Part shown: positions 12,983 through 48,386 of the stretch, piece by piece | Numbering within the stretch: position 1 is the first letter of the stretch | Layout of the letters: the number at the start of each line of letters is the position of its first letter | Origin: Hysterangium stoloniferum | Lineage: Eukaryota > Basidiomycota > Agaricomycetes > Hysterangiales > Hysterangiaceae | Length of the DNA stretch: 64,000 nt | NCBI GenBank assembly: GCA_015178975.1 | Contig: WHVD01000064.1 | Coordinates: forward strand, 62,001-126,000 | Reading direction: 5' to 3' | Position numbers and translations under genes: made by a program | The notes under the pieces: model-generated | What the model was told of the DNA's origin: nothing | Databases searched by the model: none | The model's input: the letters and a program-made list of their open reading frames with translations, nothing else

Positions 12983-14819
12983 TCAAACTTTGGTTTGCGC
13001 CGCCAATGCAGCGTTCATGCCCATCCAGCTCTTTTCAACCAGACTAAGCAACTTCGCCATATCCGAGCTCCAATCATTCAGGACGTCCTCGGCACTTCGC
13101 TTTTGTGTAAAGCTGATGATACCAGCAGGGCGGTCAATTCGAGCCCAGATACTTCCAGAGACGACAAGGCGAGACAGAGTCTCCTCCGTTTGTTGTGCGG
13201 AGAGATCCAGTAGACTTTGTAGCCGAGAAAGATGGATACGGGTATAATAATGTGAAATAACTCGGATATTCTGAAGAAAACGTCAAAAATTACGCTCGTA
13301 ATAATTCGAGGCACTGACATGTTCAATGACGCGAGTATGCAAGTCTTCCCATCTCTTATCACCCCCATCACCGAACACGGTTGTCGCTCGCAAAGTCGGG
13401 CCATAAATGCCCTCAATTCTAGGCCAACGCATCAACTCACGTGTGGTAAAACATTTAACAAGATTACTGTGTTAAAAGTCAGCATTTATAATCGTGAAAG
13501 TAATTAAACGATGTACTAGTGTAATTCCATCTTCAAGAGTGCAGGGTCAACGAACAAGTGATGTAGCATATCCGATTGCTCATTGTCATAAGGAGCAAGG
13601 ATAACGTAGTAAACAATATATTCGAGTGCCTTGGTAATGTAAGAAATTAGGCATGCGCATACGAAACATAGTTTATAACAGCACACCTGGCGACCTTTAC
13701 CTGCTTCGTCTTCTTTTATCGACGGCGTTTCCCAGATCTTGTAATAATGCTTAGCCACATCTAAATATGCTGCTTGATGGAGAGCGTATTGGATCATCAA
13801 TTCATAGTATTTCAACTTTAAATCCTGTAGGGGCTATATTAGCCAACTTCCCGGAAGTGTAAATGAAGATCCCAACAAACCTCGTTGTCCTTCTCCTTCA
13901 AGAAGCCTTCATTGACCTTTCTCCCGCCTACTCGTACCTTTACCCATTCTGCCTCACCATCAGCAAGACCGGCACCGGCACCATCATCAGCAATGGCTCG
14001 ACTCTCCTTCGCCTTCTTCGCTTCCGCATCTTTCATCTTAGCAACGTGCACCAGAAGCCGCATCTGCTCTAACAAAAATTCTGTCTTTTCTCGACGCTCC
14101 ATTGACGAGTATGTCTCTACTTGGAGCTCAGAAAGTAAATCTGATGCAGTCTGAAGGCATTCCTGGGGAGAAGGCGATGTTTGCGAAGGGGAATTGGAAA
14201 GTGCTTCGTTATAGTGAGCAAGGAAGAGTGTTACACGTGCTCTTGGAGTTTCAAGGAAAATCTTGGTTATGGGTGAGTCATCTACATATTTCCCAGAGCG
14301 TTCAACATACCTTCCCCTCTGTAACATCTCTAAGAGCGTTGATGATTGTGAGCCATGTTTCTGTGCCCTCTGTTTCACGGACGGCATTCAACCATGTCAT
14401 TGTTAATTCCACCATTGTCTGGACAACGCTTTTCAGCTGCCCATGCTTCTTAGACAAGAGAACCAAGTTTGTAGTTAACAGTTTGTAATTTCGTGCTTCA
14501 TTAGTGAGGGTGAGGAGCGTTTCGGCGAGTCGGGTCGTTGACTTCAAGTCCGAGGCCTGTGTACCAAGCGCATTGTATGAGTGGAAGAGTACAAAACATA
14601 TAAGATAAACTACATTTCGGGTTTGCTTCTCTAATGAAAGTATCTTTTCTATGGCGTCTTCGAGCTTTCCCCCCTGCAAGCCGGAAAGGATACAATTGTC
14701 AGTACTTAACATTATAAACGCGCTGCTCCACCAACCTTCGCAGATGCCGTGACTTCAGGTATTAATGCATCTACTTCAGGTGTGAAGTCTCGCTCTTGTT
14801 TCTTGGGTTCTGAAGACAT
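12983..14819 (-). CDS. RPN5: 26S proteasome regulatory subunit RPN5 (PSMD12)
   Basis: PCI-domain subunit of the proteasome lid, needed for lid assembly and Rpn11 docking. Minus-strand exons encode MSSEPKKQERDFTPEVDALI, GGKLEDAIEKILSLEKQTRN, helical repeats (NYKLLTTNLVLLSKKHGQLK), a middle segment KFYVERSG-like followed by RRE-KTEFLLEQMRL, then KYYELMIQYALHQAAYLDVA, VILAPYDNEQSDMLHHL, LMRWPRIE, and the PCI winged-helix region ending near AALAAQTKV at TGA 12983-12985. The order and motifs are characteristic of Rpn5. The start ATG at 14819 is the first in frame. A low-complexity insertion of Ala, Gly, Lys and Glu lies at about 13950-14030. No break noted; some exon joints are by eye. Confidence 0.9.
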
Positions 14820-15254: not shown

Positions 15255-18200
15255 GGTGGTAATGCACAACTGGAACTGTCGCAAAGCCCTGAAATCACGT
15301 TATTTGCACTACCATGCATATGTCAGGTAAATATACTCAAGTACAGCTTTTGTATATAAAACTAACACGAACAACGCTAATTGTAAAAGTATATGGTTAT
15401 AAGTACTCTCAATCCACAAATGGGTCATCCAATTGATTAAACCGCTGCTAAGAAGTCCCCTGCAATCAACCTGATCCATGCTTTGACAACCAAACTACTT
15501 CCTCGGGGGAAGTAGTGATACCGTGCCAGTCTGCTTCGCTTTGTCGCCGTCAGCGTCAAAGTACCGCATGCTACTGAAACTCCACTCGTAGCTCCCAGTG
15601 ACCCAGTTACCCAGACCAAATACATACTGCTTTAATTGGTCACGGACCTTGATATCGTGGCATTCAGGCAAATCCGTCATGGCGTTCAAGAAATCATTTG
15701 CACGCTTCTGGTACCATTCATTAATGTAGTCCATCGCCTCTTGGACACTGCATTTGTACTGGTTTTGAACAACGATGATCGCATTATGAATCTCTCCACG
15801 AGCTTGTTCGACATTGAATGATAAGACATCCTAGTATAGCGGTGTCAGCGAAGTAGGCATATGGGTAAAGGCGGAATTCACATTAGCAACAGCGACCATA
15901 TCGATCGACATGAACTCCAGGTCGACAATCCGCCGGTCGAGGAGAATTTCATCTGGAATCTCCAAGGGCAACAGAATCATGTCATATGCTGGTTTGATCC
16001 CTCCCGCGAGACGCCGCACGGACAAATAATCGTCGATGTTCTTGCGGATTGTAGTATGATTTCGGTCTTCGGCTTCCACGATGACACCCATCATATACTC
16101 CTCGTAGCTCTTGATCAATCTTCTAGCAGCGGTGTCACTGGATGCGCTCAAAGTCTTGCACCAGAATCTGGGAGGGACGATGAATATAACAGACATTCCT
16201 TGAATTTAAATAACTTACTCCCTGTGAAGTTCGCCAATGCAATGTTCCCCCTCTGGTCGTGGCTTATGAGGATTTCTACAATACAAATATGTTGACGAGC
16301 TAAAATTCAATCCAGTTGCAACGTACCTTAAAGCATCCAGAGCGATCTCGGCGATTCCGCGGACCTCCTCTGGACCGAGGACGTCAGTAATCTCGTCCAC
16401 AGCAAACAATATATTCGTGAAGTCGCAGGCCGCTCTGAAAAGCTCCTTTGTGTGGTGGGGAGATGTCAGTGAGGCAAGCAGTCCGACATTAATCTGACGG
16501 AATTTTTTCGTGTGGGAAGGGGAGAAGAGAGAGAATGAATCCACCCAATCTGCACTGGCAGAACTGACATCTTCGTACCAAGGGCTCATTATACGAGGAA
16601 GCGGCCAGCTTTTATGTAGGTCAGGAAGCTTGAATTCCATAGTGTCGAGAGAAAGTTGAAACTATGGATTAGAGGGGTAAATAGGTGGGGGAGTCGTGGA
16701 CTTAAACGAAATCACTTACCTTTGTATCCTTACTTACTTATGGGCATAGCTACTTGCGGGCATGCCCCGATCACCCACAAACCATATCTGTAACTAGGGC
16801 ACTAGGACCCTTGATGGGGTCGCCCGTGTCAAAATAAACAACATCTGGTTTATTTAGTTTCACATTCTAAAAGGTTGGATGTATAAATCAGGAGGGTAAA
16901 AAGGTATGAAGTTCAGCAGGAGAATTACTTACCTTTATACTCTGCTGTAATTCAAGTATATTCTCAATACTGCCATCCACTAGAAATGACTTCAAAACAA
17001 GATAGCGCTATGGTTGACAGTTCCCCGCGTCATTTAAAAACGTTCTGAAACAAGAGAGCTATGGTTAACAGTTCCCCGGAACAATTTTAACAATTGCCGA
17101 ATCGCAGCACGGCTCGGTACCTTCTCAAGACGTCATTTAAAAGCGTATAGAGAAGCTACAATTAGCCGAGCGTACGCATAAGCGCGCCTAACCCCTCAAA
17201 ACGCTCCATTTGTGTGCGCCATGAACCTGGAATGAAGACTTTCCAACCTCCCGACGAAACACTTCATGTCTGCAGATAGCCAAACGTACACCCAAATGTC
17301 GATAATTTACTTCGTTATTTCTCCATTTCTTCGTTACAGGATTTTTCGCTGTGCCTTATAGTGTTGACGCAAAGGGGGGGTATACGTCGGTACACTGTGG
17401 ACACAAACAAAAAGCGTTAATATTACTAAGCTACTATACAGGACTATGTAGTGTTATCGCGAAATATATTAGGACCCACAAGTGTCATAATGTTGAGATT
17501 ATTACCGAACGGCCAAAATTTCAACATATAGTCCTCGTATCCCTCGAGGACCTGTGATCCCCACACTTAGAAGTATACTTATCGTGAGAGTCCGAGCTTA
17601 TGAAAAAATCCATCATATTTCAGATAAAAAAAGTTAGTTTATTATATTCGGAAACCAAGTCATTTAATTGTCAGTATCTCCCTGTACCGAGCCCTCGTGC
17701 AAATCGGCTTCGGAAAGAGTGAGAGCAAACTACAAGCCTAAGGGGGTAAATCATCTTACCCTTTTTGACCACAATATGCTTAACCTTTGGCATTGATATT
17801 CGAGAGAGCAATACCACCCATTTATTCCATCAATTTTTACAATATGGAATAGATGACTATAGCCTCTATGCTATACAGTGCACAACCAAAGTGAGGGCTT
17901 GCAAGCGTCTCCAACCTCTGACAGCATGTATCAACCTATAATGTTCCGAAGATTATAGTACCAACTTGAAGGAACAAGCAATGCCCGATGATGGGATCCA
18001 GGCCGTATTATGGGGCGAGATTGAAACACAAACGATTCGTTATGCAACGTTAGGAGAAACCACTGCACCGTATGGAACTATCTATTGATAACCAAATTTC
18101 TACTAGCCACGTAATGGCTCAACCACTGGTGTAAAACTGGATCAAAAACCAATCAAGAACTGGTTTAATACTTGGCTCAAGAAACGCTCAAGAAACAGTC

Positions 18201-18330
18201 CAGAGTTTAACGGGTTCGGAACTGATCATAGCCGAACGGTCAAGAACCAACTCCTAAAGGTATTGAAATTCCACCGAGTCATCTGTTAATGACGTTTCAT
18301 TCTACCAACGCTGGCTACTGAAGTTCCCGA
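15255..18330. repeat. Segmental duplication, copy 1 (terpene synthase unit)
   Basis: Similar, interrupted sequence occurs at about 19880-22610. Matching blocks include the 3' flank (GTAATGCACAACTGGAACTG near 15260 and a variant near 19890), the whole synthase gene, an upstream block ending near 16870 and 21625, the block near 17215-17340 matching 21750-21880, and the block near 17740-18290 matching 22085-22500. Copy 1 has extra sequence at about 17345-17560. Edges are approximate. Confidence 0.75.
15495..16640 (-). CDS. Sesquiterpene synthase 1 (class I terpene cyclase)
   Basis: Predicted to ionise farnesyl diphosphate and cyclise it to a sesquiterpene hydrocarbon in the cytosol. Four exons (16640-16327, 16275-16219, 16167-15882, 15830-15495) sum to 993 nt, 330 residues, with GT-AG introns of about 51 nt. 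The metal-binding aspartate motif DEITD lies in FAVDEITDVLG near residue 83. The NSE motif N-D-V-L-S-F-N-V-E is assembled across intron 3. The C-terminal YVFGLGNWVTGSYEWSF and SMRYF fit basidiomycete synthases, loosely the protoilludene-synthase type. The product cannot be told from sequence. It has a near-identical paralogue at 20092-21252, and a P450 lies nearby. All catalytic motifs are intact, so it is probably functional. Confidence 0.92.
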
Positions 18331-20091
18331 GGATACGGTTAATATAACAGTCCTGGTTGTGAGCTTGCTACATAGGGCGAGTCTTATGAAAGCTTTGCGA
18401 AGTGGGAAGATGAGGCGTTATGAAGTAGTGGCTGCTGAGGAGGAGAAGGTGCAGGTGGCAGTTACAGGTTGCGGACTTGCCGGCGGTACGGGGTCCTGGA
18501 GTTCGACCTTCTGGGACACATAAACGGGGAGACCGTCAAAGGGTGAGGGGTTGGCCGTAGCTGCTGTATCTGGGAAGGAGGAGAATGTTTGAGTAGACAA
18601 AATGACTCTGTAGATGTATGACTTGGCATTGCACGTGGAGGGGATGTTTTCTCGATACAACTTAATTATCAGAGTTTGTCTCATCCATAAGTTATGTATG
18701 TATTACGGGGTGTATCTCTTGATCCTTTGTGTTATTACGTTTAGAGATCTTGACTTTAGATATTCACTACCGCGACAGTAGAAAGTGATTTGGGTCAAGG
18801 CAGCGCTTTCACGAAACTTGATGATTAGACTGCATGTATTAAAATATTCAACATCTGGTGGTTGAAATTGATTAAATATATAATATCGTACCTGGAATTC
18901 ACTCTCGCCAAATGATGAGAGTTGTTGAAGTTTACCTGCCTGGATATTTCAGAGACTCTTGACTTCTTTGCACTAATTGGGGGGAGGGGGGGGAGGGATA
19001 TATTCTCCTATTTAAATCTGCGGAATAATTAGTACCCACTGCACATTTGCGTATGGTTTGGGTGGTAGGGCTGAAAGCGAGATGACGGCCTCCGAGTCAA
19101 TTAGTAGACCAAGTCGTGCTAGGATGTTAGGATATATACCGGGAAAGTAGCGACAAAGAACCAAAAATAAATTTTTAGAAAACAGACATTGCAACAGGAA
19201 CGATGAGATCCACAGCAACAATGTAGTGAAATTGCATGTTATGTAGATCCGATGGAGTTGCTCATTAACCAAAATGCCACGAAGTGGCGGTACGATACAC
19301 GCCATTGCCAACGACTCACACGCTGCGCAAAGCAGCTAGAGCTAACATATATTCAAAAAAAAAAACACAGAGAACGATTTCACGAACTGATGAATGCCTT
19401 TGATATCAGGTCAGAAAGAGTGGAGAGTAAGGAGGCGGTAAAACAGAACCAGGATGGAAGAAAGGTTTCAAAACGAGAATTGTGGATTGAAGGAGCAAGT
19501 TATAATTTGACAAAAGCAATGGATCCAGGTGTATTCGGACTGGTCGGAAATTGATGGAGGGGGTAGGAACGGCACCAGTTCTGAACGTAGGGAGGATAAA
19601 AAAGAGGGAATCAAGACATTATGTAGGATGGAAAGAAGACCAAACAGTCTATGAAGTTGAGGTGGAGGGACGGAAATGACATATCGACGGACAATAAAAT
19701 CGTCACACAGGCACGAATAAAGCTGTTCACCATGCGGGTACCGAGCGAATCAGCCATTCAAAACAAACAAAATCGATGGAAGACAATAGACGTAAATGGG
19801 CGCAAAATATTATATTCTGATCAGTTTATGCTTCCAGAATAATTCTAATATATTCAAACTATAAATAACTACTCCCTAAACATTGTAGTAATGCACAACT
19901 AGAACTGTTAAAAAGTCCCGAAATCATGCTCTTTGCATTGCCGTGTCAAACTCAACTACAGCTTTTTTATATTAAACTAACACGAACAACTTTAATAGGC
20001 CATGTATTCAGTTATGAGTAAATATTCCCAATTTATATCTATGAGGGTCATCCAACCAATCAAATCGGCGCTAAGAATGTCTCTATGTAAT
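16641..20091. other. Intergenic DNA between the two terpene synthases
   Basis: Includes the upstream half of duplication copy 1 (to about 18330) and about 1.5 kb of unrelated sequence. A short imperfect tandem repeat, sharing GCTATGGTT and CAGTTCCCCG, lies at about 16993-17076. No convincing gene: frames at 17351-17557, 18418-18684 and 19252-19554 have no recognisable domains. A peptide-like block at about 16770-16870 (minus strand) is preserved in both duplicates. Confidence 0.45.
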
Positions 20092-22610
20092 CTATGCATT
20101 GACAATATACTTTCTTGGAGGAAGTAATGATACTATGCCAGTCTGCTTCACTTTGTCGACATCAGCGCCAAAAAATCGCATGCTACCGAAACTCCACTCG
20201 TAGTTCCCAGTGACCCAATTACCCAGACCAAATACATACTGCTTCAGTTGGTCACGGACCTTGATATCGTGGCATTCAGGCAAGTCGGTCATAGCATTCA
20301 AGAAATCATTTGCACGCTTCTGGTACCATTCATTAATATAGTCCATCGCCTCTTGGACACTGCATTTATACTGGTTTTGAACAACGATGATCGCATTATG
20401 AATGTCGCCACGAGCTTGTTCGACATTGAATGATACGACATCCTAGTATAGCGGTGTCAGCGAAGTAGGCATATGGGTAAGGCGGAATTCACATTAGCAA
20501 CAGCGACCATATCGATCGACATGAACTCCAGGTCGACAATCCGCCGGTCGAGGAGAATTTCATCTGGAATCTCCAAGGGCAACAGAATCATGTCATATGA
20601 TGGCTTGATCGCTCCCGTGAAACGCCGCAAGGACAAATAATCGTCGATGCTCTTGCGGATTGTAGTATTATTTCGGTCTTCGGCTTCCGCTATGACAGCC
20701 ACCATATACTCCTCGTAGCTCTTGATAAATCTTCTAGCAGCAGTGTCACTGGATATGCTCAAAGTCCTGCACCAGAATCTGAGAGGGACGATAAACATAG
20801 CAGACACTCCTTTAAATAAAATAGCTTACTCCCTGTGAAGTTCGCCAATGCAATGTTCCCCCTCTGGTCGTGGCTTATGAGGATTTCTACAATAAAAGAT
20901 ATGTTGATGAGCTAAAGTTTAATCTAGTTGTAACGTACCTTAAAGCATCCAGAGCGATCTCGGCGATTCCGCGGACCTCCTCTGGACCGAGGACGTCAGT
21001 GATCTCATCCACAGCAAACAATATATTCGTGAAGTCGCAGGCCGCTCTGAGGAGCTCCTTTGTGTGGTGGGGAGATGTCAGTGAGGCAAGCAGTCCGACG
21101 TTAATCTGACGGAATTTTTTCGTGTGGGAAGGGGAGAAGAGAGAGAAGGAATCCACCCAATCTGCACTGGCAGAGTTGACATCTTCGTACCAAGGGCTCA
21201 TTATACGAGGAAGCGGCCAGCTTTTATGTAGGTCAGGAAGCTTGAATTCCATAGTGTCGAGAGAAAGTTGAAACTATGGATTAGAGGGGTAAATAGGTGG
21301 GGGAGTTGTGGACTTAAACAAAATCACTTACCTTTTATTCTATAATAAATCGGATCCAATTTATTTCTGTCGCACCTGGAGCAGTTGCCTCAATCCTCGT
21401 AACTGGCTCCCCATAGGAAGAATTTCAACATCAGCACACAGCACGGCTTGCTATGTTCAAATCCATATTACGTGTAACCCATGATATCTCAATATACTTA
21501 CTTATGGACATTGCTACTTGCCGGCATGCCCCGAGCACCCACGAACCATACCTGTAACTAGGGCAGTAGGACCCTTGATGGGGTCGCCCGCGTCAAAATA
21601 GACAACATCTGATTTATTTAATTTCACGTTCTAAAATACTTACAATTTATTGCTTTTCAAATCACTCAGGGCACAGAAGCGCATTATACTTACGAGTATT
21701 TGCTTTCCTACTCTCTGTCGGAGTATCAGCTCGCAAACTGCTCCACTGTTCGATGTACGCCATGAACCCGGAATCAAGACTCTCCAATCCTACATCTAAT
21801 CACGATGTCTGCAGAACGCGACATCCGCCAAAATATCGACTCCAATTCCTGAGTTTGTCTCTTTTATTCGCTACAATATCTTCGTTCTGTCTCGTATCCC
21901 CCGAATGCCCTCATCCCTCAACCTGAGAAGTTAGTTATCATTGATCAAGAAAATCCGAATATAAGAAATGCCCAAGCTTTTAGATAGCACTGACTCTCTC
22001 TATTTATTTCCGAAATTTCAAGTCATCTGATTCACCTCATCTACTGCTCCGGAGGAGAGGATGAACAGACGGTAGCACTAAAGGGGTATGTCATCTTACC
22101 TTTTTCTGCCATAATCTGCTTAATTTTTAGTAGTATTCTTTGACATAGAATTACTACAAATATATTCCACCTATCTGTTCAATACGTAATAGATGGCCAT
22201 GGCTGCTACAAAATTATGCACATTACATAGCCTAAATGAGGGTTTCCAAGCATCCCCAAGTTTTGATCGCATACATCAATTTCTATCGATAATATTATGG
22301 GATCAGTTATAGATCTCTGACGAAGGGACCCGCATTGTATAAAGGGCCAATCTTGAAGTACATAAACGATTTGTTGTGCAATTTTAAAGGAGAAAGGGCA
22401 GCGTAGGTAATACCTATTGAGAACTAAGTTTCTACCAGATAAAAACTGGTCCAAGAACAGGCCAGTTAAGAACCAGCTCCAAAAAATAGTTGAAATGCCA
22501 CCAAAATCATACTTGGGAAATATATAAGTAGAATCACATATTATTTGCCGCACAAATTGTGGATGGTCCATAATGAAAGTTCATTCTACACTAGCTCCAT
22601 AATTATTATT
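19880..22610. repeat. Segmental duplication, copy 2 (terpene synthase unit)
   Basis: Counterpart of 15255-18330. Similarity is highest over the coding exons and falls in flanks. Copy 2 carries extra sequence between its synthase start and the upstream block (about 21335-21490). Boundaries are estimated from visible block matches. Confidence 0.75.
20092..21252 (-). CDS. Sesquiterpene synthase 2 (class I terpene cyclase)
   Basis: Tandem paralogue of the synthase at 15495-16640 and probably a recent duplicate. Exons 21252-20939, 20886-20830, 20778-20493 and 20442-20092 sum to 1008 nt, 335 residues; the first three exons have exactly the lengths of copy 1. The aspartate motif DEITD is unchanged, and the NSE motif reads N-D-V-V-S-F-N-V-E across intron 3. 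The C-terminus is extended by five residues (YIVNA) after LLPPRK. Substitutions relative to copy 1 are scattered, for example in the segments near ARRFIKSYEEYMV and RRFTGAIKPSYD, which could alter product profile. No break in the frame. Confidence 0.92.
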
Positions 22611-24138
22611 ATCTATCATGGCAGCAACAAACCCCCGACTTCCTTGCACCGTACAAACGCCCGGCGGATTCCTATCAGTTCGGGTCTCACAATGAATTAC
22701 GATAGGTATTAAAGCAACCCCTTATTATCAGTTTAGCGCGATATCGATAGGGTTCGTTAGGAGTTATACCTCTCTGACAGCAACGGTCATTTTTTTTCAG
22801 TGAAGTTGGTCGCGATCTTATCTCAAAACGGCACATTATGTTGAGGTTAGCGGCCGGGGATCCCGACAGGGCTTGGGCTTTCTTGATACCTTCATCAGGG
22901 TGTTTTCACTTAGGGCCTTTCGAAAATCCGGGAGTGTTCATTGAGAGATTTCTCGGACGTTTCCAACCAGACAACACTGCTGGAGGTGCCATACAGGGTC
23001 AAGGCGCCCATTGCAAGGCGCACCCATCTTAGCGGTGTGGTTCAGCGCTACCGTTCCATTGAGATCTGCAGTTCGAATCTAGAGTTTTAAGCCTGCATTA
23101 AACATACCACTAGGGAGCTTCAGTGGATATTTTGGCAAGTTTGGCCGGCGAGTCCCACTACCTACAGGCTATCTGTTAGTGTACATTGTATTTCTTCCTT
23201 GGTCTGTCTTGGAAAGGGACCCCGGACAGTCGATATACAACGGAGTCTTAGAAGCCGGGCGGCTATATCAAACATTCCACGAAAAACAAAAAAGGTTACC
23301 CGTTGAGTACTTTGAGTACTATAGACCACAAAATACTTTCAATATCAATGTATTTAGACTCCAGTGCTACACGGAGTTTTGAATTATTCTAATACCGTGC
23401 CAAATACTCCACGTCAATTATCTGTTTGAGGCACTTTGATGACCCAATTCAATATCTCGAACACCCAAAACTTTGACTATTCTTGTTAACATTTGTCTAA
23501 TGGTGGTGTGTAATATGTATTCTAAGTTCTCTTGGTGGTGGTACTACATTGACTTTCTCTATATACAGTCCGGGAACGGCGCGCCTATTCTGTGGACTCT
23601 GTCAAATAAATCCAATTGCAGTTGCTAATAAGAACAAGCATGATATATGTCTCTATCCTACCGCCCACCCCGAAGTGAGCCGGTGCGCGCGACGTTCCTA
23701 AACCCGGCGTATTTGACCTGATAACTCGAATCTGTCATCACAACCAGAAGAGCGAGCCCCAAGGAGATTACTGATGTATGCGGGATCTTGGTGTCAGATC
23801 AAGTGCCCCCATAATATACCCAAAGGTAAGGTTCCTTAAGCATTATGTTTTCGATGCGTCGTAAGCATCATCCTTCTGAGATTGGCGGTTCGATGCTAGG
23901 TAGTGTGCCACTAGCAGTTCATCAGTAAAATGGTATTTGTTCCAGACGGCTCCCGGAGGAGATCCCCCCATTCTAGGAAGCTCCTGGACGTTGTGGAGCG
24001 TGTGGAGCATCCCAGAATAGGGGTACCTCCTCCCAGCGTTTAATACCATTTTACTGATGTTGGCGGACTAACGGATATTCGTATATAAAGTGCGTCAGAA
24101 TATGACTCTCGATATCAACCCCACCCACTCCTTGACCC
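21253..24138. other. Intergenic DNA between terpene synthase 2 and the P450
   Basis: Contains the upstream half of duplication copy 2, then about 1.5 kb with no recognised gene, then the foldback repeat at 23920-24059 just before the P450 start. The open frames at 22838-23032 and 23179-23382 show no known domain. Confidence 0.45.
23920..24059. repeat. 140-bp foldback (hairpin) repeat
   Basis: The ends are a perfect 18-bp inverted repeat, CATCAGTAAAATGGTATT (23920-23937) against its complement at 24042-24059. The interior continues as an imperfect inverted repeat around GGAGGAG and the CCATTCT / AGAATAGG pairs. It could be a tiny miniature inverted-repeat element. It lies about 80 bp upstream of the P450 start codon. 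Confidence 0.7.
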
Positions 24139-26326
24139 ATGAAACCCCAGCAATACCTTTGCCTCGGTTTTTTAACCACCGCCATCTCACTTGTCATAGT
24201 AGTATTGGCGCATATTGTATCAAATCGAAGGCGGATCCCCAGGGGTAAGCTTACCATTCCTACAAAGCAAGACTACAATTCATCAGGTGATCCCCTGTTA
24301 TACATCAGGGCTAAAACTACCTCCTGGTCCGCCTGGAAATCTTTTAGTTGGTAATGTAGCTGATTTGCCCGCGTTTAACGAATGGAAGACCTATGGAAAA
24401 TGGGCAAAGGAATATGGCAAGAATTCTATGTTGCAATATGGCTGATTCCTGTAGTCACTTTGGCTGTTTCCAGGTGATCTTGTATATCTCCGTGTCCTCG
24501 GTACTTCAATCTTATTTGTCAATTCGAACAACATGGCACAAGAGCTATTCGAGAAGCGATCAAAAATCTACTCTGACCGCCCAGCCCTGACTATGCTTCA
24601 TGAACTGTAAGTGTGATTCTGATCTGCTTTGTTTCATGAAAAGTAAACAAATACGAATGCAATTCAAGGATGGGTTTTGACTGGGGCTTACCTGTCATGC
24701 CGTACGGAGAATCGTTCCGCCATCATCGTCGAGTGACTCAACGCAAACTCACCTCGGGTTCCCTGCTGGAGTATCGCCCTATCCAGTTGAAGAACGCACG
24801 GTTAGTGCGCTTCACTTTGTTAGTCATGGAAAAATGTGACGGGTATATCTTAGACATCTATTGCAGCGGCTAGAAGCGTCTCCGACGAAATTTCTGGAGC
24901 ATACTCGACACACTATTAGCGCAATTATTATGGAGGTTCGTTGGGATACATTCTGTCGTACTTCAGGTAGTCTGATTTTATAGATCACCTATGGTATTCA
25001 AATAAAACCACACAATGACCCGTATGTTGCCTTGGTCGAGGAGGCAATGGGTCCGGCAGCTCTGGCAGCTGCTCCTGGTGCATTCATGGTAGATATAATA
25101 CCAGCATGTGAGTCATGAAATATTTTCATAATTACAATGCGAAAGGCCCCTTACTATATTTTGGTTGTTTCACAGTGAAGTACATACCGGAGCAGTTTCC
25201 TGGTGCGAGTTTTCAGCGTAAAGCGCGAATTTGGAGCCAGCTTTTGAATGACATGGTTGAAGTGCCTTTTGAAGCTGTAAAAGCAATGATGGTATGGAAA
25301 TAAATGTGCATTCGAATTTACTCTCAATGGTCATATTTTATCTTCTACTCATAGAAAAGCGGAAAGGCGCAACCCTCCATGACATCCACTTTACTAGAAG
25401 AGCTTTCCTCAATGAATAATGTAGATGAAGAAAATGAAGAGAAGATAATTCGGAATGTCGTTGGTATGATACATGCGGGTGGCGCAGACACGGTAAGTTG
25501 GACATCACCCAAGAATCAAGATAAATTCAAATAATATTTTATAGACTATATGTGCCCTAGAAATCTTTTTCCTGGCAATGGTTCTTTACCCGGAAGCTCA
25601 AACGACTGCCCAAAGGGAGATCGACAAAGTGATAGGACCTCAAAATCTCCCTGAATTTGACGACCGCAAGCTATTGCCTTATACTAACTCCCTCTGCAAA
25701 GAAGTTCTTCGATGGCACTCCGTTTCTCCAGTCGGAATACCACATCGTTTGAACCAGGATGACATTGTTGGGGATTTTTTCATACCAGCAGGCACTATTG
25801 TCATTGGAAATTCTTGGTACGTCGTTATGAACCACATAAGTTATTGCAATAGGGACATTGAATGATATAAGGGAAATTTTGCATTCGGAAACCCTTTACG
25901 GTCGTGATACGGACACCTTCCTACCCGAACGCTTCCTTGAGGATCCCAATAGAGAACCTAACGCAGCATTTGGATTTGGAAGAAGGTATTGATTATCTTT
26001 GTCAATTTACATAAAAATTGTTTGACAGGTTCCAAACCACCAGAGTCTGTCCTGGTCGTCGTATGGCAGAAGATTCTCTCTTTATCGTGGTGGCATCTAT
26101 ATTACATATATTTTCCATCTCTCCGTCAGGGCCAAACATGCCCTCGTTGGATGCATTTACTCCAGGGCTTATTTCGTATGTACTATTCGATTTATTCTCT
26201 TGTTTATTGGTTGCGTCCTGATAAGATTGATCTGTTCGCTACAGGCATCCTCAGAACTTCGAATGCAACATTCGGGTTCGTTCAGCGGAAGCATTAGAAC
26301 TTCTCTCCAGTGTCGGTTCATTGTAA
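24139..26326 (+). CDS. Cytochrome P450 monooxygenase
   Basis: Membrane-anchored haem monooxygenase of the endoplasmic reticulum. Multi-exon gene with an N-terminal hydrophobic anchor (LGFLTTAISLVIVVLAHIV, about residues 8-27), a proline-rich hinge LPPGPPGNLLVGN, the I-helix AGGADTT-type motif (HAGGADTT near 25480-25545), the K-helix EVLR ExxR (near 25700-25720), the PERF motif, and the haem loop FGFGRR-VCPGRR split by an intron at about 25986-26051, with the cysteine ligand present. The stop TAA is at 26324-26326. All signature residues are present, so it appears functional. It lies about 2.9 kb from terpene synthase 2 in divergent orientation, which suggests oxidation of the terpene, though this is only inferred. 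A DNA-level fragment of the same family lies at 5690-5820. Confidence 0.9.
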
Positions 26327-27757: not shown

Positions 27758-29164
27758 TTATGAAGTCCACTGTAGTACAAAATACCCCAAATGTTTCTCT
27801 CTCAATATTTTCTCTCCGACGATACCCCACGGGGTTGTCCGTAGATGATATACCATCCCCTTTGGCGACTTCATCGTACCTCGACCTGTCTCCAAGTTGA
27901 CGGAGCCTTCCATCTCCCAAGGGGGGTTACCCTTGTCATCACTTACAGTGGCTGTAAGTGCAAGGTGCTGGTCCGTGAATGGCAGAGACAATTTGTTTGC
28001 GAGTGCCTTAGTGTTGACTTTAGGCTCGAATTGCATAGTCATTTTCGACTCTTCTTCGTTGGCCTTGCGATATGTCCCTTTCACTGGCGTGGAATATTTG
28101 TATCGTTCAGCCGCCTGTCGCAAACCTGGGACTACTGACCACGAACGAAATGAAAGTGAGTGATATGGCGGATCATAATTGAGCGAGGGCAGGGGTAATG
28201 GCGGAACGTCGGTCCATGTCAAGCAGGCGAATGTGTATACAGAGTTGTCGCGAGCTGCCTGAAATGCTGGAGATGTGCTAACGTCTTTGAAGTTCATGCC
28301 TTCTAGGAGATCTGCCACGTCTTGTTCGATGTATGGATATAATGGCTGTGCTAAAAAAAACCAGTATATTTGTTAAACACATGTAACGAAATATAATGAC
28401 TTACTATTTACATAAGCAGCCATTAAAAATGTCTTCTGATAGCGAATTTTCCAGTTGTCTGCTGGGATAGTGGTAACAAATTGCAAAAAAGTCATATCCA
28501 TTTTTTTAGCGAGTGCAATGAGTGCTGGAAAGTTTTCGCTCTCTGAAAAAAGAAATTGAGTTCAAAAGCAAACAATATAAGGAAGTGACGCACCATGCTC
28601 TGTAACAATATCGACCAAAATCTGCATGAATACCGCGGTTGATTTCTTGAGTAGCTTGTTTCCGGAAGCTGCTTGTTCCTGCATGGCGCGGTATCGATCC
28701 AAAATCTCATCCTTACGAATGGCAGACCTTGCGAGGTACAACCAAGGCTTTCCTTTGAAGTTTTCTGCCTCCTCTATCCTCCGTATCAGCGCATCTATAT
28801 CCCAATCGTTCATTTTTATCCAGTTTCGAAATGTGAAGGCTGTGCGGAGACCATGACATTGTGGTGACGTAGAAGAGACTAGGATGATGTCACGGGGTGT
28901 TAAATATTCTGAGACGAAATGAAACGCCATTGCAAAGTGTGAGGGTGGGTTATGAGCATCTGTGAGTTCAGAAGGACTTGAAAACGGTGGAGAATGAACA
29001 CCATACGGTGTTGACAGTGCAGTGGACGGTGTGGGTGTCCCTGAGCGCGAATGCGAGTTTGCGGACGAGTTTGACAATGACCTACGGTGCTTAGATATCT
29101 GAGGAATCATCAATGTTAATCTGGACCTCAAAGAGGGCGAAGAATGTCCGTCTATCGAGGCCAT
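27758..29164 (-). CDS. Unrecognised protein, tandem family copy A
   Basis: Three exons, 29164-28594, 28542-28405 and 28350-27758, sum to 1302 nt, 433 residues, with GT-AG introns of about 50 nt. The N-terminus (residues 1-65) is Ser/Thr/Pro-rich and probably disordered. Next come a mixed helical region (FHFVSEYLTPRDIILVSS, ALIRRIEEAENFKGKPWLYL), the short exon 2 (ENFPALIALAKKMDMTFLQF, IRYQKTFLMAAYVN), and a C-terminal beta-rich-looking domain with the conserved PPLPLPSLNYDPPYHSLSFR and WEMEGSVNLETGRGTMKSPK. No signal peptide, transmembrane segment or catalytic motif was recognised. The same exon structure is shared by copy B at 30876-32356. I do not recognise the family. Confidence 0.8.
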
Positions 29165-30875
29165 ATTATCAGCTTGAAGTTAGTAGTGGTAGAAAGGAAA
29201 GCTCCATTAGTAAGGCTTTGATCGCTCCCAGTGGGATAAGTATATATTGAATACGTATTTATGGAGTATTTAGAGAAATAGTGTTGATTGTCCGCAAGCA
29301 TACAATGTTAGCTGTAGTTCCTACTGCAGTAATACAGCATGTATCTCCGCCATGAAATCAATGTCTTGACAATAATGCACAGATGAATTGCGTGTCTGGA
29401 GCGTGTGCGGGATTGAGTTTATACCTCTGCCAGTGACTCTATCATGATTCGCTAAATTAATTATCCGAGTCGAGGGAAAGTTCTCATCAGCTGGGCCACT
29501 CTGCCCAAGGAGGCCTTTCCTATCCAGAGGTATTGCCCATGAACTGTCTCATAGGATAACAGTACACAGAAATATAATTGCAAAGCGTACTAAGAGCAAG
29601 TCTAATATCAAATCCAACTCCTATCAATTGACGAGTGCCAACTGGTGCCTTTTTGTTATTTATTGATAGCCGATATGAGACTCGGACGCTATAGCTGTCA
29701 TTGCAAGCTTCTTATTAAATATTTGACTGGTTATTCTATATAAAAACATGAGCAGGATTCCTAGGACCTTCAAGGACGTTAAATAAGTGTGTCCTCGAGT
29801 ACCATAATCTAACGCTCACACTGGCATACGAAATGGCGCTCTAGTGGTCCCTAAATAATGAAGAGATTTTTTTTTTGTGAGACAAGTAAACAATAGTCTC
29901 TATTCCAGGTAAAAAAAAAACGTTGAAGGAAAAGAATTTCCCTAGTAAGCGGCTCGAGATGACTGACGGCGGGAGACTATTTAGGCGCGGTGTTCCGTTT
30001 TCCTGATGAAGTCTATCATTTCCAGCTACGAACACATTGAATTTAGGACAGATGATTACCTCACAGTAAGACTCACTACCCGCGGAAACTTCATTTTTCA
30101 AGTTTCAACATGACTGTAACCGGCCTCCAAATCATCTCGTTGAGCATTTCGACATTTCGAAAGCGGCATAACCACGTCGAGACTTGTCAAGTCCTAATTT
30201 TTTGAACTTCATCACGATGTATTAGATCGTTGCCTGCTGAGTGACTGAGTGTACAGTCTACTAAATGACTCGCTGGAAGGACTCGTTGGGACTTCCGTAT
30301 TTCATACAAGATTGATATACGGCATGCGGGGGGACGCAAACACATCACATCTCATTTGGAGTAGACGTTCGAATTATAGACTCGTCACCTCGCCACTCGA
30401 CCTAAACCGCATCACATGCAAGGCCAGTTGTCACGCAGTCCTGTTGCAGGGGGAGGTAAGCCCGAGAGATGATTTATTGGGTACATGGTACTTTGCTTTA
30501 CAACTGTACCTGGCCCAGGCACCCCCAGTTGCAGCATCCTGATATCGAAGGTTAACGCCTGCGGGGGCGATCTGACTGACTGCTAAAGTGCTGAGATCAG
30601 AAAGTTTAGATTTGTGTTTCAACACGCTACAGTAATATATAACTTTCTCTCTTCACTACCTTAGAAAACACGCGCTCGTAGAGACATCCGATTGGAGTGC
30701 CTGCGTATGACTTACAAAGTCGCTTGCCAACAGTGCTGCAATGTCCGAGTATATTATGGTATATGGCTACATCAGATAACAGGAAATATGACTAATGGAA
30801 ATAATTTGATCAACATTTTAAGGATACAAAAAATTCTGCGATTTCTCTACCAAGGATCATTCCTTTGGCTAGTTA
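29165..30875. other. Spacer between tandem copies A and B
   Basis: About 1.7 kb. The stretch near 30755-30875 resembles 27645-27757 (the 3' flank of copy A), so the tandem duplication includes 3' flanking DNA. No other gene is recognised. Confidence 0.5.
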
Positions 30876-32356
30876 TCAAGCCCACTGCAGTACAAAATAG
30901 CCCAAATGTTTTTCTCCCAATATTTTCTCTCCCACAATACCCCACGGGGTTGTCCGTAAATCATACACCATCCCCTTTTGCGACTTCATCGTACCTCGAC
31001 CTGTCTCCGAGTTGACGGAGCCTTCCATCTCCCAAGGGGGGTTACCCCCGTCATCACTTACGGTGGCTGTGAGCGCAATGTGCTTGTCCGTGAATGGCAG
31101 CGATAATTTATTTGCAAGTCCTTTAGTGTCCGCTTTAAGCTCGAATTTCATAGTCATTTTCGACTCATCTCCGTTGGTTTTGCGATATGTCCCCTTCATT
31201 GGCACAGACGATTTGTACCGTTCAGCCCCCTGTCGCAAACCTGGGACTGACCACAAACGGGATGAAAATGAGTAGCATGGTGGATCATAATTGAGCGAGG
31301 GCAGGGGCAGTGGCGGAACGTCAGTCCATGTGAAGCAGGCATATGTGTATAAAAAGTTGTCATGAGCTGAATGTAATGCTGGAGATGTACTGATTTCGTT
31401 GAAGTCGATGCTTTTTACGACATTTTCTACGTCTTGTTCAATATCTGGATATAATGGTTGTGCTAAAAAAAAAATCTAAACACATGATGCGAAATATGCC
31501 ATCGATGATGACTTACTATTCACATAAGAGGCCATTAAAAATGTCTTCTGATAGCGGATTTTCCAGTCGTCTGCTGGGATGGTGGCAACAAAGTGCAAAA
31601 AGGTCATATTTAATGTTCCAACGAGTGCATTAAGTGTTCGAAAATTTCGGGTCTCTGGAAAAAAAAATGAGCTCATGAGCGGACAATATAAGGAAGTGAC
31701 ACACCGTGCTCCGTAACAGCGTCTATTAAAATTTTCATAAACTTTTCGATTGATTTCTTATGGTGCTTGCCCTTGGAAGCTGATTTTTTATGGTCCAAAA
31801 GCGCATGGTATCTTTCCAAGAGGGTCGCCTTTTGTATAGCGGACTTCGCTAGGTGTTTCCACGCCGTTTTGCCTTTCGCCTCCCCCGCTCTGCGCAAAAG
31901 CGCGTCTGTATCCCAGCCGTTAAATCCCAACCAGTTCTCAAATATGTCAGATGTGCGGAGGTCGTGACGCAGCCGCCGCGTTGTCATGGAGGCAATAAGG
32001 ATATCGTGTGGTGCTATATACCTTGAGACTGTGGTCATCACATCGACAAAGGAAGCTCTTTTAACTTCGATAGAGGAACGGGGAGAAAGATTCTCAGGGT
32101 CATTCGGGGTTGAAGTTGGGCTCGTCGCAGGTGTCCCTGAAAGCGACCTTAAGGACACGTTGGACAGCGACCTTAAGGACGCGTTGGACAGCGACCTTCC
32201 ACGAGCTATTAAACCCTGTGCTGGAGGAACGAGCAACGCTGTTATGGTCACGATCTTCGTTCGAATGGGACCTTTCTCCTTCAACTCTGAGTCCATATGA
32301 TCGTTGTGGGGGTGGGAAGAAAATCGCAAGTGAGCGCCTGGTATAATTGTCTCCAT
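30876..32356 (-). CDS. Unrecognised protein, tandem family copy B
   Basis: Paralogue of copy A with identical intron positions: exons 32356-31705, 31654-31517 and 31462-30876 sum to 1377 nt, 458 residues. Exon 2 is exactly 138 nt in both copies. The N-terminus is longer than in A and contains a repeated serine-rich heptad-like motif (SLSNASLRSLSNVSLRSLSG, about residues 54-73), encoded by a short tandem DNA repeat at about 32138-32200. The C-terminal domain is strongly conserved with A (TEHG..., RTTPWGIVGEKIL), while the N-terminal half has diverged much more. An internal ATG at 32296 is an alternative start. No known family recognised. Confidence 0.8.
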
Positions 32357-35300
32357 TGCAAATCAAAGCGGTCTCTCTGGGAGTTGTTTCAAGCAATGAG
32401 GGTATGGGGTACTTCATTCCAGTTTTGACCCCTCGTGTTATATAGTGCAATGCGATGCTATACAATAGCCTAAGACGGCGCGAGCACTATCTGGATAAAA
32501 GTTACAAAGCAGTGCTTAGAATTGCTGCACAGTCACCAGATGTAGGTGGCTGTAGTAATAGTAATCCTCATTACAATAGATGAATTGTGTGGTAGCGATG
32601 CTTCATAACCCGGGGTAGAGCGTCTTCTGATCTTTCCACCGGAGATCCGATTGTGGTCCTGGATAGTACCGTCCTCTACGGTCTTTAGCAGTGCAACACT
32701 AACGCTATACCACACGTGCATGATCCAGAATGTTCACGTTCGTTTTCACAGCTTCCGATGACCCGGTAACAGTAGCCTGAGGCTATACTAATCTCACTGC
32801 GATATGCACATGCATAAAGTAACATTCAAACAATGTCCCAGTCAGACCACAAGGGGAAAAATAAGATATGGTTTCTTTCAGCATATGCCTACTGCGTCAT
32901 CTCCTTCCTTTGACCAACTACCAAGAGCCATAATTGCGTCCTGAGCTCTTTCTCCATGCTATCTCGACATTCGTATGAGCAGCCGCGCCATCTGTCGGAT
33001 TGCCGCGGGCCAACGCCACGAAAGAACTGTATCTCTTAACAGCTTGGCTCACAACCATGCCTGTGGCCAAACAACTCGACAGTCCACAATGCCTTCAGTT
33101 GGTCTACAACGTAATTGAGAGGCAGAAAAAGGAAAAACGTGATCGCGTCATAGCCTTGCCCCCCTATTCGGAGATGCTCCTGCATGGCCCCCAAAACTTA
33201 ACCATTCCCAATAGAGACGATCGATGATGTATAAACGTTATATATTTGAAACCTGGCAGATCTGGTAAATGATCTCGCACACAGGAATCATATCCTTACT
33301 TAGCAAACTTCAAGAGATGTTGCTAGAAGGTGGCAGACGTGGTTCAGGTAAAAATATTGAAAGTCAGCATGCACATCAATTACCGTTATAGAGTACTGTA
33401 CACATGATAGAGTATTTATTGTGCTTATTGTTCATTTTCTAGTCCTCCACAACGCGTTTACATCCTTTTGTTTAATTTTTGGTCCAGCATCCGTTCGTGT
33501 CTTGACCATTTGCGATACAAATACTTTATTTCACTTCAAGCGCAAATATTGATTCTCCGGGTGACGTACGGTTTACGTGAAGTAACGACCTATTCCGAAG
33601 GCAGTGCCGGATCGGTTCCTCGAATCGTCGAGGAATGCTCTCAAAGCATTATTTACCATCTCCGTGTGGTAATAGAATCATTTCATGCCGACATGTCCGG
33701 TCGCGCGGTAATGCTTGTGTCGGTAGTCCGTCTCGGCCACAGCATATTACTCATAAGTTTTGGCTCACCAAGGATGAATCCCAGCTGGCTTGAACTCACA
33801 CTTTCGGCACCAGTAGATTTGGTATAAGCGCAGCTTAGATTCAATCACAAACCATACGCGTTGCACCATGTCTAATTGCCGAGGCCGCCAGGAGTGATGA
33901 ACAATTCCCGCAATCAACTTTTCACAGCTACTATTCTTTGATTCGTAACTTCGTTCCTAGAATACACAGTGTGGACGTTGAGCATTCTTTCCATTATGGC
34001 TCTGGGAGGACCATTTCCTGTGATGTGAGAGTTTACATGAGTTTATTTGGACATATTGACACTCTCGTTTTCACCTCATATCGATCCACGAAAAGGCTTT
34101 TTTTATACTGATTTTATTTGACTGGCATAATCAAATTTCGCTTCAAATCAGGTACGACAAGAGCTGCGGCGAAGTTTGTATGTTAGGGGAATACTCTTTC
34201 CCCCTCCGCAGTCCTTAGCCTTGTCACTGAGAATTCATTGAGAATTTGCCTGCTTTTTTCCGACCATAATCCGAACAAATATTACTTGTTCCAAGACCAG
34301 TTTTATAATACCCTTTGCATCGCAATATTGAACATTCTCTTGTTGAAATTTTGGAGCGTCCATAGAACTCCTCCCCTCCCCGACGCTACAAGTGGGACGG
34401 TATTGGAGAAATTTCAATCACTCTTGTTTTCAGGGATTTAAGCATTCCTGGACTAAACGTACAATAACACTTGTGTGCGGTACTCTTATTATATACTATC
34501 GACTTGGTGAGGCTACATATATGTCTGATCCAGTGTTACGCAGCGCTTATAGGGCTAGCCCGGATTCCCAACATCGCTGAACGAACCTCAAAGCATCTAA
34601 TTTTCTGAGCACCAACAATAACAATTGTCTTAGCCCTAGCCCTTTTGAAATATTTACGTTTTTTTGATGTATTTTTCACAAGTATTTTCAAGTTCGGAAA
34701 TCCAATACCCGGTGCTGTATATGTTGCATTGAACGCCATTGCTCATTACTGGGTCTACCTCAGTCCGCCATCAATCTGATCTCCATGCTTGAACCAGACC
34801 ACAATCTCAGTCTGTCGCCGGTTGCCTGATACCGGAGACAATGACTTCGAAACGATTCCAGGATCTCCATTTGGCTGGGAAGCATTGTCTACCCCTCGCC
34901 AGAATTTACTATTGTTAGCGAATGAGATAGGTTGGTGCTATTCAACAGGGATAATATTATCCGAGACTCGGTTCTTATTGTCTCAGAAACCTTCGTTTTC
35001 ACCTCAAGTTCACCAGAATGGCAAATGGTACGTGCCCAAATGCTATTACTGCCCCTGCCTCCGGCTATTTATAAATTTCTTGCCCTTCAAGAGAAAGTTT
35101 CAACGTTCGTAACTATCCATGGGCCTCAAGCTGTGGAAGTGGATACTAACCCCGTTGCCGAAAAAATGCCCATTTGCCAAATTGTTCCCTTTCAATCATT
35201 GGCATCAATTAAAATGCAATAACACTGATTCCCCTTTTATTGAGAGCTGCTTGAGCGTCAAATATATATATAACTTGTGATACCCCACCAGCCATTTGAA

Positions 35301-46783: not shown

Positions 46784-48386
46784 CAGTGACTTACAAAACA
46801 TATCCAATGTTTTGTAGTTTCAGCTTATACATGCTATATCCCAGTAGATAAAATAGTAGAAATCACCAGAATATTTGTGAACATGACCTATCATGTATAT
46901 ATTTATATGGTAGAACTATATTATGTAATATCCATATATGGAAACACTATGAATATTTCAATGGAGAGCATTCATTGGATACATTTTGTAACTGACACAT
47001 TTAGGCAGGAAATTACTAGTATTTAGTACTTAGTGTAGCTACCCTTTGCCTTTAATACATCTGAAGCCCTCCTAGGCATACTTTAAATCAAATCCTGACA
47101 CACCTTTTCATCAATATTGTACCATTCATCCACCACCCTCTCCCACAACTCTTCCATCCCCTGGGGTGCATTCTCATACCCTGCCAACCTCCTCTTCAGG
47201 TGATTCCATAGGTGTTCAATGGGATTCAAGTCAGGAGACTGTGCTGGCCATGAGAGAACCCTGAAACCATTTTCTTGGAACCAATTCTGGGCCTTCTTGC
47301 AGGTATACTTGGGGTCATTGTCTTGCTGGAAGATGATACCATTGGCAGATTTACCATAGTCCTTAAGACTTGCTTGCAGGTCATCCTCCAGAACCAGGAT
47401 GTAGAGATCCCCATCAATCCTTCCATCAATCTTGCATGCATACCCAACCCCCTCCCACAGCATGCACCCCCAAACCATTAAAGATCCACCACCAAACTTC
47501 AGGGTTCCCTCAACCAGCCTGTCACTCAAGCCCTCCCCTGCCTTTTTCCACACCCACTTCCTGCCATCTGACCCCAGCCTATTAATTTTGGTCTCATCAG
47601 ACCACACCACCTTCTTCCAATCCTCCACAGTCCAATCCTGATGTGCCAAAGCAAAATCCATCCTCTCCTTCCTATGCCTCTTAGACAGAAGAGGCCTTTT
47701 CTTCTTTACCACAGGCTTCATCCCAGCTGCCTTGAGTCCACGACACACTGTTTGAGGATTGAGTGACTGGTTGGTGATAGTGCAAAGTGCCTTTGTTGCA
47801 TCTACAGCTGTATCAGCCTTTCCATAGCTGATAAGGTGTTGTGCAAAATGGATGTTGGCTGTGGAGAGTTTGGAAGGGTGACTACCAGAGGACTTAGAAA
47901 GGTGGGAACAGTGTTTAGAACAAAGTCTAGAGATAGTAGCATTGCTATAGCCAGTAGAAACTGAAATATGTCTGGCAGAATGGCCAGCATTAAGTAGAAA
48001 AAGGATCTCATACTGGGCAGCAGTGGAAAGGGATGCATAGTTAGAATTGAGGGAATCTTAGCTGAGAAAGCCCTTCTGCTTATACTGTAGTATAGAATGA
48101 TCACATGACATGTTGAAAAACATAAACAACTGCAAACAATCAACATAGGCACATGGTTTTCATGCTAGAACCTGTCAGTTACAAAACGTATCCAATGAGC
48201 GCTCTCTATTAAAATATTCATAGTGTTTCCATATATGGATATTACATAATATAGTTCTACCATATCCATATATACATGATAGGTCATGTTCACAAATATT
48301 TTGGTGATTTCTACTATTTTATCTACTGGGATATAGCATATATAAGCTGAAACTACAAAACATTGGATACATTTTGTAAGTCACTG
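46784..48386 (-). mobile_element. Tc1/mariner-type DNA transposon with TA duplication
   Basis: A 1603-bp element flanked by TA (46782-46783 and 48387-48388). Its ends begin CAGTGACTTACAAAA and form long terminal inverted repeats of about 210 bp (46784-46996 and 48173-48386). Each repeat also carries at its inner side a second, inverted copy of the tip sequence (CATTGGATACATTTTGTAAC). It encodes one Tc1-type transposase on the minus strand. The ends are well preserved, suggesting recent activity. Confidence 0.93.
47083..48111 (-). CDS. Tc1-type transposase (DD34E), one in-frame stop
   Basis: Cut-and-paste transposase. From ATG 48111 the frame is 343 codons including the stop at 47083. The N-terminal half has two helix-turn-helix-like regions (STAAQYEILFLLNAGHSARH and the NPQTVCRGLKAAG region). 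The catalytic triad is visible: VVWSDETKIN (first Asp), IIFQQDNDPKYT (second Asp), and DLNPIEHLWNHLKRRL (Glu), with 34 residues between the last two. A TAA at 48058-48060 (codon 18) interrupts the frame. The longest ATG-initiated uninterrupted part starts at 47748 and lacks the DNA-binding region. Either this is a near-intact inactive copy or a small 5' intron bypasses the stop. Nearby AG acceptors make that possible. Confidence 0.88.

Follow-up and report, generated by a model that had tools for sequence, protein, structure and literature searches.

In the 64,000 nucleotides of Hysterangium stoloniferum DNA analysed here (the window), two closely similar class I sesquiterpene synthase genes, TPS1 and TPS2, lie beside a P450 gene, and we read the three as a compact sesquiterpenoid locus in which duplicated, partly converted synthases would supply what are likely two related products and the P450 would hydroxylate one of them. 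We put the probability of this reading at about one half. In the mechanism that we propose, each synthase would bind farnesyl diphosphate through Mg2+ held by the DEITD motif and the NSE triad, ionise it and close it to a sesquiterpene; the class and the metal-binding motifs are read from the sequence, and the substrate, a 1,11 ring closure and the product are predicted from it. Tandem duplication of a unit of about 2 kb, some upstream sequence included, would have given rise to TPS1 and TPS2, and later gene conversion would have homogenised patches, one covering exon 1 and the 5' flank next to it, another the exon 3/intron 3/exon 4 junction; between the copies, residues 128-184 and the C terminus would have stayed different. 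The likely outcome would be two products that are related yet distinct, and TPS1 would be the copy that has changed more. Provided that its GC-AG intron is spliced out, the P450 would, judging only by its position, act on one of these products.

Spliced gene models were built from the window sequence. TPS1 (15495..16640, minus strand; 330 aa; exons 16640-16327, 16275-16219, 16167-15882, and 15830-15495) and TPS2 (20092..21252, minus strand; 335 aa; exons 21252-20939, 20886-20830, 20778-20493, and 20442-20092) encode proteins that are 93% identical. Both match PF19086 in Pfam far above the cut-off (6.8e-41 and 3.1e-43, respectively), their six introns, of 50-52 nt, all have GT-AG borders, and both proteins carry DEITD at residues 82-86 and NDV(L/V)SFNVE at residues 219-227, that is, the class I (PF19086) motifs D(D/E/N)xx(D/E) and NDxxSxxxE, correctly placed. 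A sequence-only reading of this DNA had described twin intact class I terpene synthases with conserved DEITD and NSE motifs and matching exon lengths. Family, motifs, full frames, intron borders and stop codons all agree with that description; the exon lengths are equal in the first three exons (314/57/286 nt) and differ in the last (336 versus 351 nt). For TPS2, NCBIfam gave matches to bacterial cyclase models only, all below their cut-offs. Judged by E values of 1e-70 for TPS1 and 9e-45 for the P450, the resemblance of these proteins to solved ones is not chance.

The spacing proposed earlier, about 3.5 kb between the synthases and 2.9 kb from there to the P450, holds: 3.45 kb separates the two coding regions, and the ATG codons of TPS2 and the P450 gene are 2.89 kb apart. 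The proposed left end at 15255 needs qualification, in that the TPS1 coding region (minus strand) ends at 15495, and what follows, as far as 15256, is 3' flanking sequence, still alignable with that of TPS2. On the left, the locus is bounded by a PSMD12/RPN5-like (PF22241) gene for a proteasome or signalosome subunit, seen as two open frames (13842..14754, minus strand), and on the right lie two unknown genes repeated in tandem, their copies 77% and 45% identical. No further tailoring gene was recognised between the three genes, in agreement with the earlier reading, among the 10 ORFs scanned of the 24 in the gaps that are at least 60 aa long and wholly intergenic; these 10 gave no Pfam match at the cut-off and two matches below it (DUF6914, E 0.039; COX7a, E 0.13). 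A larger cluster is not supported. The ORFs scanned outside the locus gave other domains (proteasome/signalosome, kinase, glycerol-3-phosphate dehydrogenase, epimerase, SNARE, MED7, Helitron, transposase and, weakly, integrase) or none, and of the ORFs in the window the 30 scanned contained no domain of a PKS, a halogenase, a second P450 or a GMC oxidoreductase.

Repeat comparison places the duplicated unit at 15256..17246 (copy 1, whose outermost upstream-side match stops at 17246) and 19885..21787 (copy 2). A stretch of about 150 bp upstream of TPS2 (21345..21496, with edges from one alignment) is missing upstream of TPS1; when this stretch was tested as a repeat, 21310-21510 matched only itself in the genome. 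Divergence between the copies is 8.7% far upstream and 2.6% in the 78 bases preceding the ATG, 2.5% in exon 1, 5.9% in exon 3 and 8.1% in exon 4, 11.8% in intron 1 and 17.6% in intron 2, and 26% in the 3' flank. Intron 3 differs at 0/50 sites versus 15/102 for introns 1 and 2 taken together (Fisher p 0.0027), and silent divergence across chosen blocks ranges from 0 to 0.55. Because divergence is so patchy, the identity of intron 3 included, these sequences most simply suggest an old duplication that was partly homogenised by gene conversion. A narrow literature search by title found no paper on gene conversion in fungal sesquiterpene synthases, which is no proof of absence.

With dN at 0.033 and dS at 0.137, the synthase pair, as judged by substitution rates, is under purifying selection overall. 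The two proteins differ at 24 residues in 330, and 20 of these 24 fall within segments 128-184 and 299-322. Replacement codons outnumber silent ones at residues 125-191 (13:3, versus 11:20 elsewhere; Fisher p 0.005); since a scan-corrected permutation gives p 0.057, we take the density of replacements there as a hint. A majority vote among seven outgroup rows polarised 18 of the 24 differences, 14 as derived in TPS1 and 4 as derived in TPS2 (binomial p 0.03); none of the single-outgroup rate tests reached significance (chi-square 0 to 3.0), with 8h72, a solved Delta6-protoilludene synthase, and C146:315k, another row of the tree described below, giving no asymmetry. There are some hints of two copies drifting towards different products, and if the products do differ, the pair would amount to a small natural experiment in how few changes are needed to redirect a fungal sesquiterpene synthase.

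The catalytic positions were read with anchor rules for class I synthases taken from PMC8450962. Pro61, the sensor Arg175, Gly179 at the effector place, Asn235, Trp302 and Arg308 are present in TPS1 and TPS2. Both synthases depart from the rules in the same three ways: Leu stands where Glu is expected, 14 residues after the sensor Arg; the Arg that should precede the sensor by 34 residues is shifted by one place; and the distance from sensor to NSE Asn is 44, not 46. At the linker place, which we take to be three residues after the sensor Arg (position 178), TPS1 has Ala and TPS2 has Thr, and the residue is T, N, S or C in each of the 21 other rows that have a letter there. TPS1 retains the RY pair and has Phe68 at the helix-D anchor, in departure from the Leu/Val/Ile rule, as does AcCop4. 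Read from the alignment, TPS2 has lost the RY-pair tyrosine, which is replaced by Phe309 and is present in 19 of the 21 other rows with a letter.

The P450 gene (24139..26326, plus strand) has 12 exons and encodes 509 aa, with a PF00067 match in Pfam (2.2e-65 over residues 40-489) and, in the spliced model, the heme motif FGFGRRVCPG, which follows FxxGxRxCxG. Ten of its 11 introns are GT-AG; intron 2 (24417-24473) is GC-AG, and its retention brings a stop within about ten codons. The closest paralogue among three loci fetched, on contig C19, is 75% identical and has the same 12-exon layout with GT-AG introns throughout, and dN/dS between the two is 0.35. This shared layout, identity and rate ratio argue that the gene model is sound, its odd exon 4-5 junction included. 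By the same sequence measures the P450 is under constraint, and we call it divergent. The earlier description of it as intact stands as far as complete frame, family match and heme motif go, and it requires the GC-AG intron to be spliced; the gene is likely, not assuredly, intact. GC-AG introns occur naturally. Upstream, 79 bp before the ATG, lies a MITE-like element of 140 bp (23920..24059) with 18-bp perfect terminal inverted repeats, and no such element was found in the 120 bases upstream of the C19 gene. At least 39 further copies are 93-99% identical (40 scored of 197 candidates), which suggests that the family was active recently, a statement about the family and not about the age of the copy at 23920..24059. 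The P450 could have been disabled by its GC donor and by the element that precedes the promoter.

The nearest relatives of the synthases were sought in a fungal comparison set made up of the organism's own genome (G000, 111 Mb) and PDB sequences. In that genome PF19086 gave 47 exon-level matches, merged into 29 gene places that include TPS1 and TPS2. The best matches among PDB sequences were 8h72 and 8gy0, and of the solved proteins both synthases match the Delta6-protoilludene synthase 8h72 best (1.1e-70 and 6.1e-70; 38% identity). We built a tree of 18 rows, with rows of fewer than 280 filled positions dropped and paralogue rows pieced together on TPS2 positions. In this tree TPS1 and TPS2 group with C537:58k (89/89, not starred), and the paralogue C549:308k, which is 54% identical to 8h72, groups with 8h72 at 100/98. 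A fork at 92/90, marked open and not starred, with few references, joins the pair with 8h72, 8gy0, C549, C537:58k and C146:315k. PMC10608071 places Denbi1_659367 (8h72) in clade III, with motifs DEHSD and NDLCSYNVE, and gives 23 of 50 clade III members as yielding tricyclic products from the trans-humulyl cation; the string DEITD is absent from the main text of that source. We tentatively assign TPS1 and TPS2 to clade III and 1,11-type cyclisation, and because C549 is 54% identical to 8h72, their product is not predictable beyond that. Orthology of the pair to protoilludene synthase was considered and rejected, since it is C549:308k, and not the pair, that groups with 8h72; going by these groupings, TPS1 and TPS2 are unlikely to be, by descent, the protoilludene synthase of this genome.

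Four other readings bear on our proposal. That TPS1 and TPS2 are protoilludene synthases supplying a melleolide-like pathway would fit their best solved match, but it is C549:308k that has much the higher identity to 8h72 and shares its tree group, the pair falls with C537:58k, and the PKS, halogenase, second P450 and GMC oxidoreductase are absent among the window ORFs scanned; we regard this as very improbable. A reading that we doubt, while granting it a real chance, is that the synthases are a functional tandem duplicate and the P450 is an unrelated neighbour, brought there by chance or by expansion of its family. Many P450 paralogues sit on other contigs, no synthase match was found in the 10-kb stretch around the C19 paralogue, and since the genome has 29 synthase places, the odds that one of them has a P450 beside it by accident are not very small. 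Three Postia P450s that act on protoilludene lie at loci apart from the synthases, according to PMC6116744. Against this, by our own arithmetic, which places 90-300 P450s uniformly in 111 Mb, a P450 is expected within 5 kb of one given synthase with a chance of 0.8-2.7%; the total is an assumption, as 92 of 298 candidates were scored in the PF00067 genome search. We also looked for P450s near 12 of the 27 other synthase places, in seven stretches totalling 185 kb. A profile built from three P450s, which a distant P450 could escape, found none there at E 1, and tblastn gave two CYP2R1 matches (E about 0.01), both at one place inside the C174 synthase itself, which we took as chance. Three genes alone between non-metabolic neighbours also fit a small cluster. 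The upstream regions of the P450 and the synthases share two 9-mers versus 0.53 expected, which is not significant (32 of 300 shuffles reach 2). As linked and unlinked P450s are both known, position alone gives a joint pathway moderate support, and we consider such a pathway plausible.

A declining locus, with TPS1 relaxing into a non-functional copy, the P450 mis-spliced or silenced and TPS2 alone at work, would accord with the excess of derived residues in TPS1, its Ala linker and Phe68, the GC donor where the paralogue has GT, and the element upstream of the P450. We think it unlikely: TPS1 has no stop, frameshift or broken GT-AG site and keeps its metal motifs and RY pair, AcCop4 shares its Phe at position 68, the single-outgroup tests are not significant, natural GC-AG introns exist, and it is TPS2 that is without the RY tyrosine. 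More speculative still, and quite improbable in our view, is a two-product cassette in which conversion would keep the metal-binding front and the NSE junction alike while a segment of about 60 residues reaching into the effector triad is kept different, each copy would rely on an unusual feature (the Ala178 linker in TPS1, the RF pair in TPS2), and the MITE-like insertion would shift the timing of product oxidation. Our preferred reading remains the compact locus of two partly converted synthases and a P450.

Basidiomycetes are already known to have synthases in tandem and synthases with a lone P450 as neighbour; the locus is real and ordinary, adding one uncharacterised synthase pair to a well-populated field and opening no new class. 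According to PMC10210940, 25.4% of the STC genes in basidiomycetes occur in tandem, and 85% of those share a clade. Compared with the Delta6-protoilludene synthase Denbi1_659367 of Dendrothele bispora (8h72), TPS1 and TPS2 are alike in class I family, near full-length alignment, DExxD, NDxxSxxxE, the RR sensor region and the WSFxSxR(Y/F)F end. Apart from their 38% identity, they differ in having DEITD instead of DEHSD, a part after the NSE motif that is shorter by one residue, RRLAGG/RRFTGA instead of RRDTIG and, in TPS2, RF instead of RY, and in lying outside its tree group. GME3634 and GME3638 of Lignosus rhinocerotis, as described in PMC5468996, are likewise a pair of related synthases from one cluster whose major products in yeast differ, but they belong to clade I, make torreyol and alpha-cadinol, and have an aldo/keto reductase named beside them instead of a P450. 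The omp1 locus of Omphalotus, as told in the same source, resembles ours in its lone P450 adjoining a synthase and differs in having a single synthase, of clade I. Like the Pro1 cluster of Armillaria gallica, the locus pairs a clade III synthase, tentatively so here, with an adjoining P450, whereas according to PMC7778616 the Armillaria cluster has a single-copy synthase, four P450s beside Pro1, a GMC oxidoreductase and a methyltransferase.

In the genome to which the window belongs (G000), class I terpene synthase genes appear as two pairs in inverted order on a single contig, C146, at 252-256 kb on the forward strand and at 311-315 kb on the reverse strand, and their scores among the genome matches to PF19086 are equal or near-equal. 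This arrangement perhaps reflects a large palindrome or an effect of the assembly.

The cytochrome P450 gene in the window is closely preceded by one copy (23920-24059) of a MITE-like family that has at least 40 copies in the genome, at 93-100% identity. To the right of the P450, two adjoining unknown genes are tandemly repeated (27761-29179 and 30879-32362), with copy-to-copy identities of 77% and 45%; a Pfam search at an E value of 0.01 gave no match for them. The segment 42001-44000 has 58% G+C, versus 47% in both flanks, and contains a proline-rich frame that likewise had no match in a Pfam search. The window also carries a 617-amino-acid open frame with a Helitron-type helicase N-terminal domain (1043-2893; PF14214, 1.8e-54) and a 324-amino-acid open frame for a Tc1/mariner-like transposase (47086-48057; PF13358 and PF01498).
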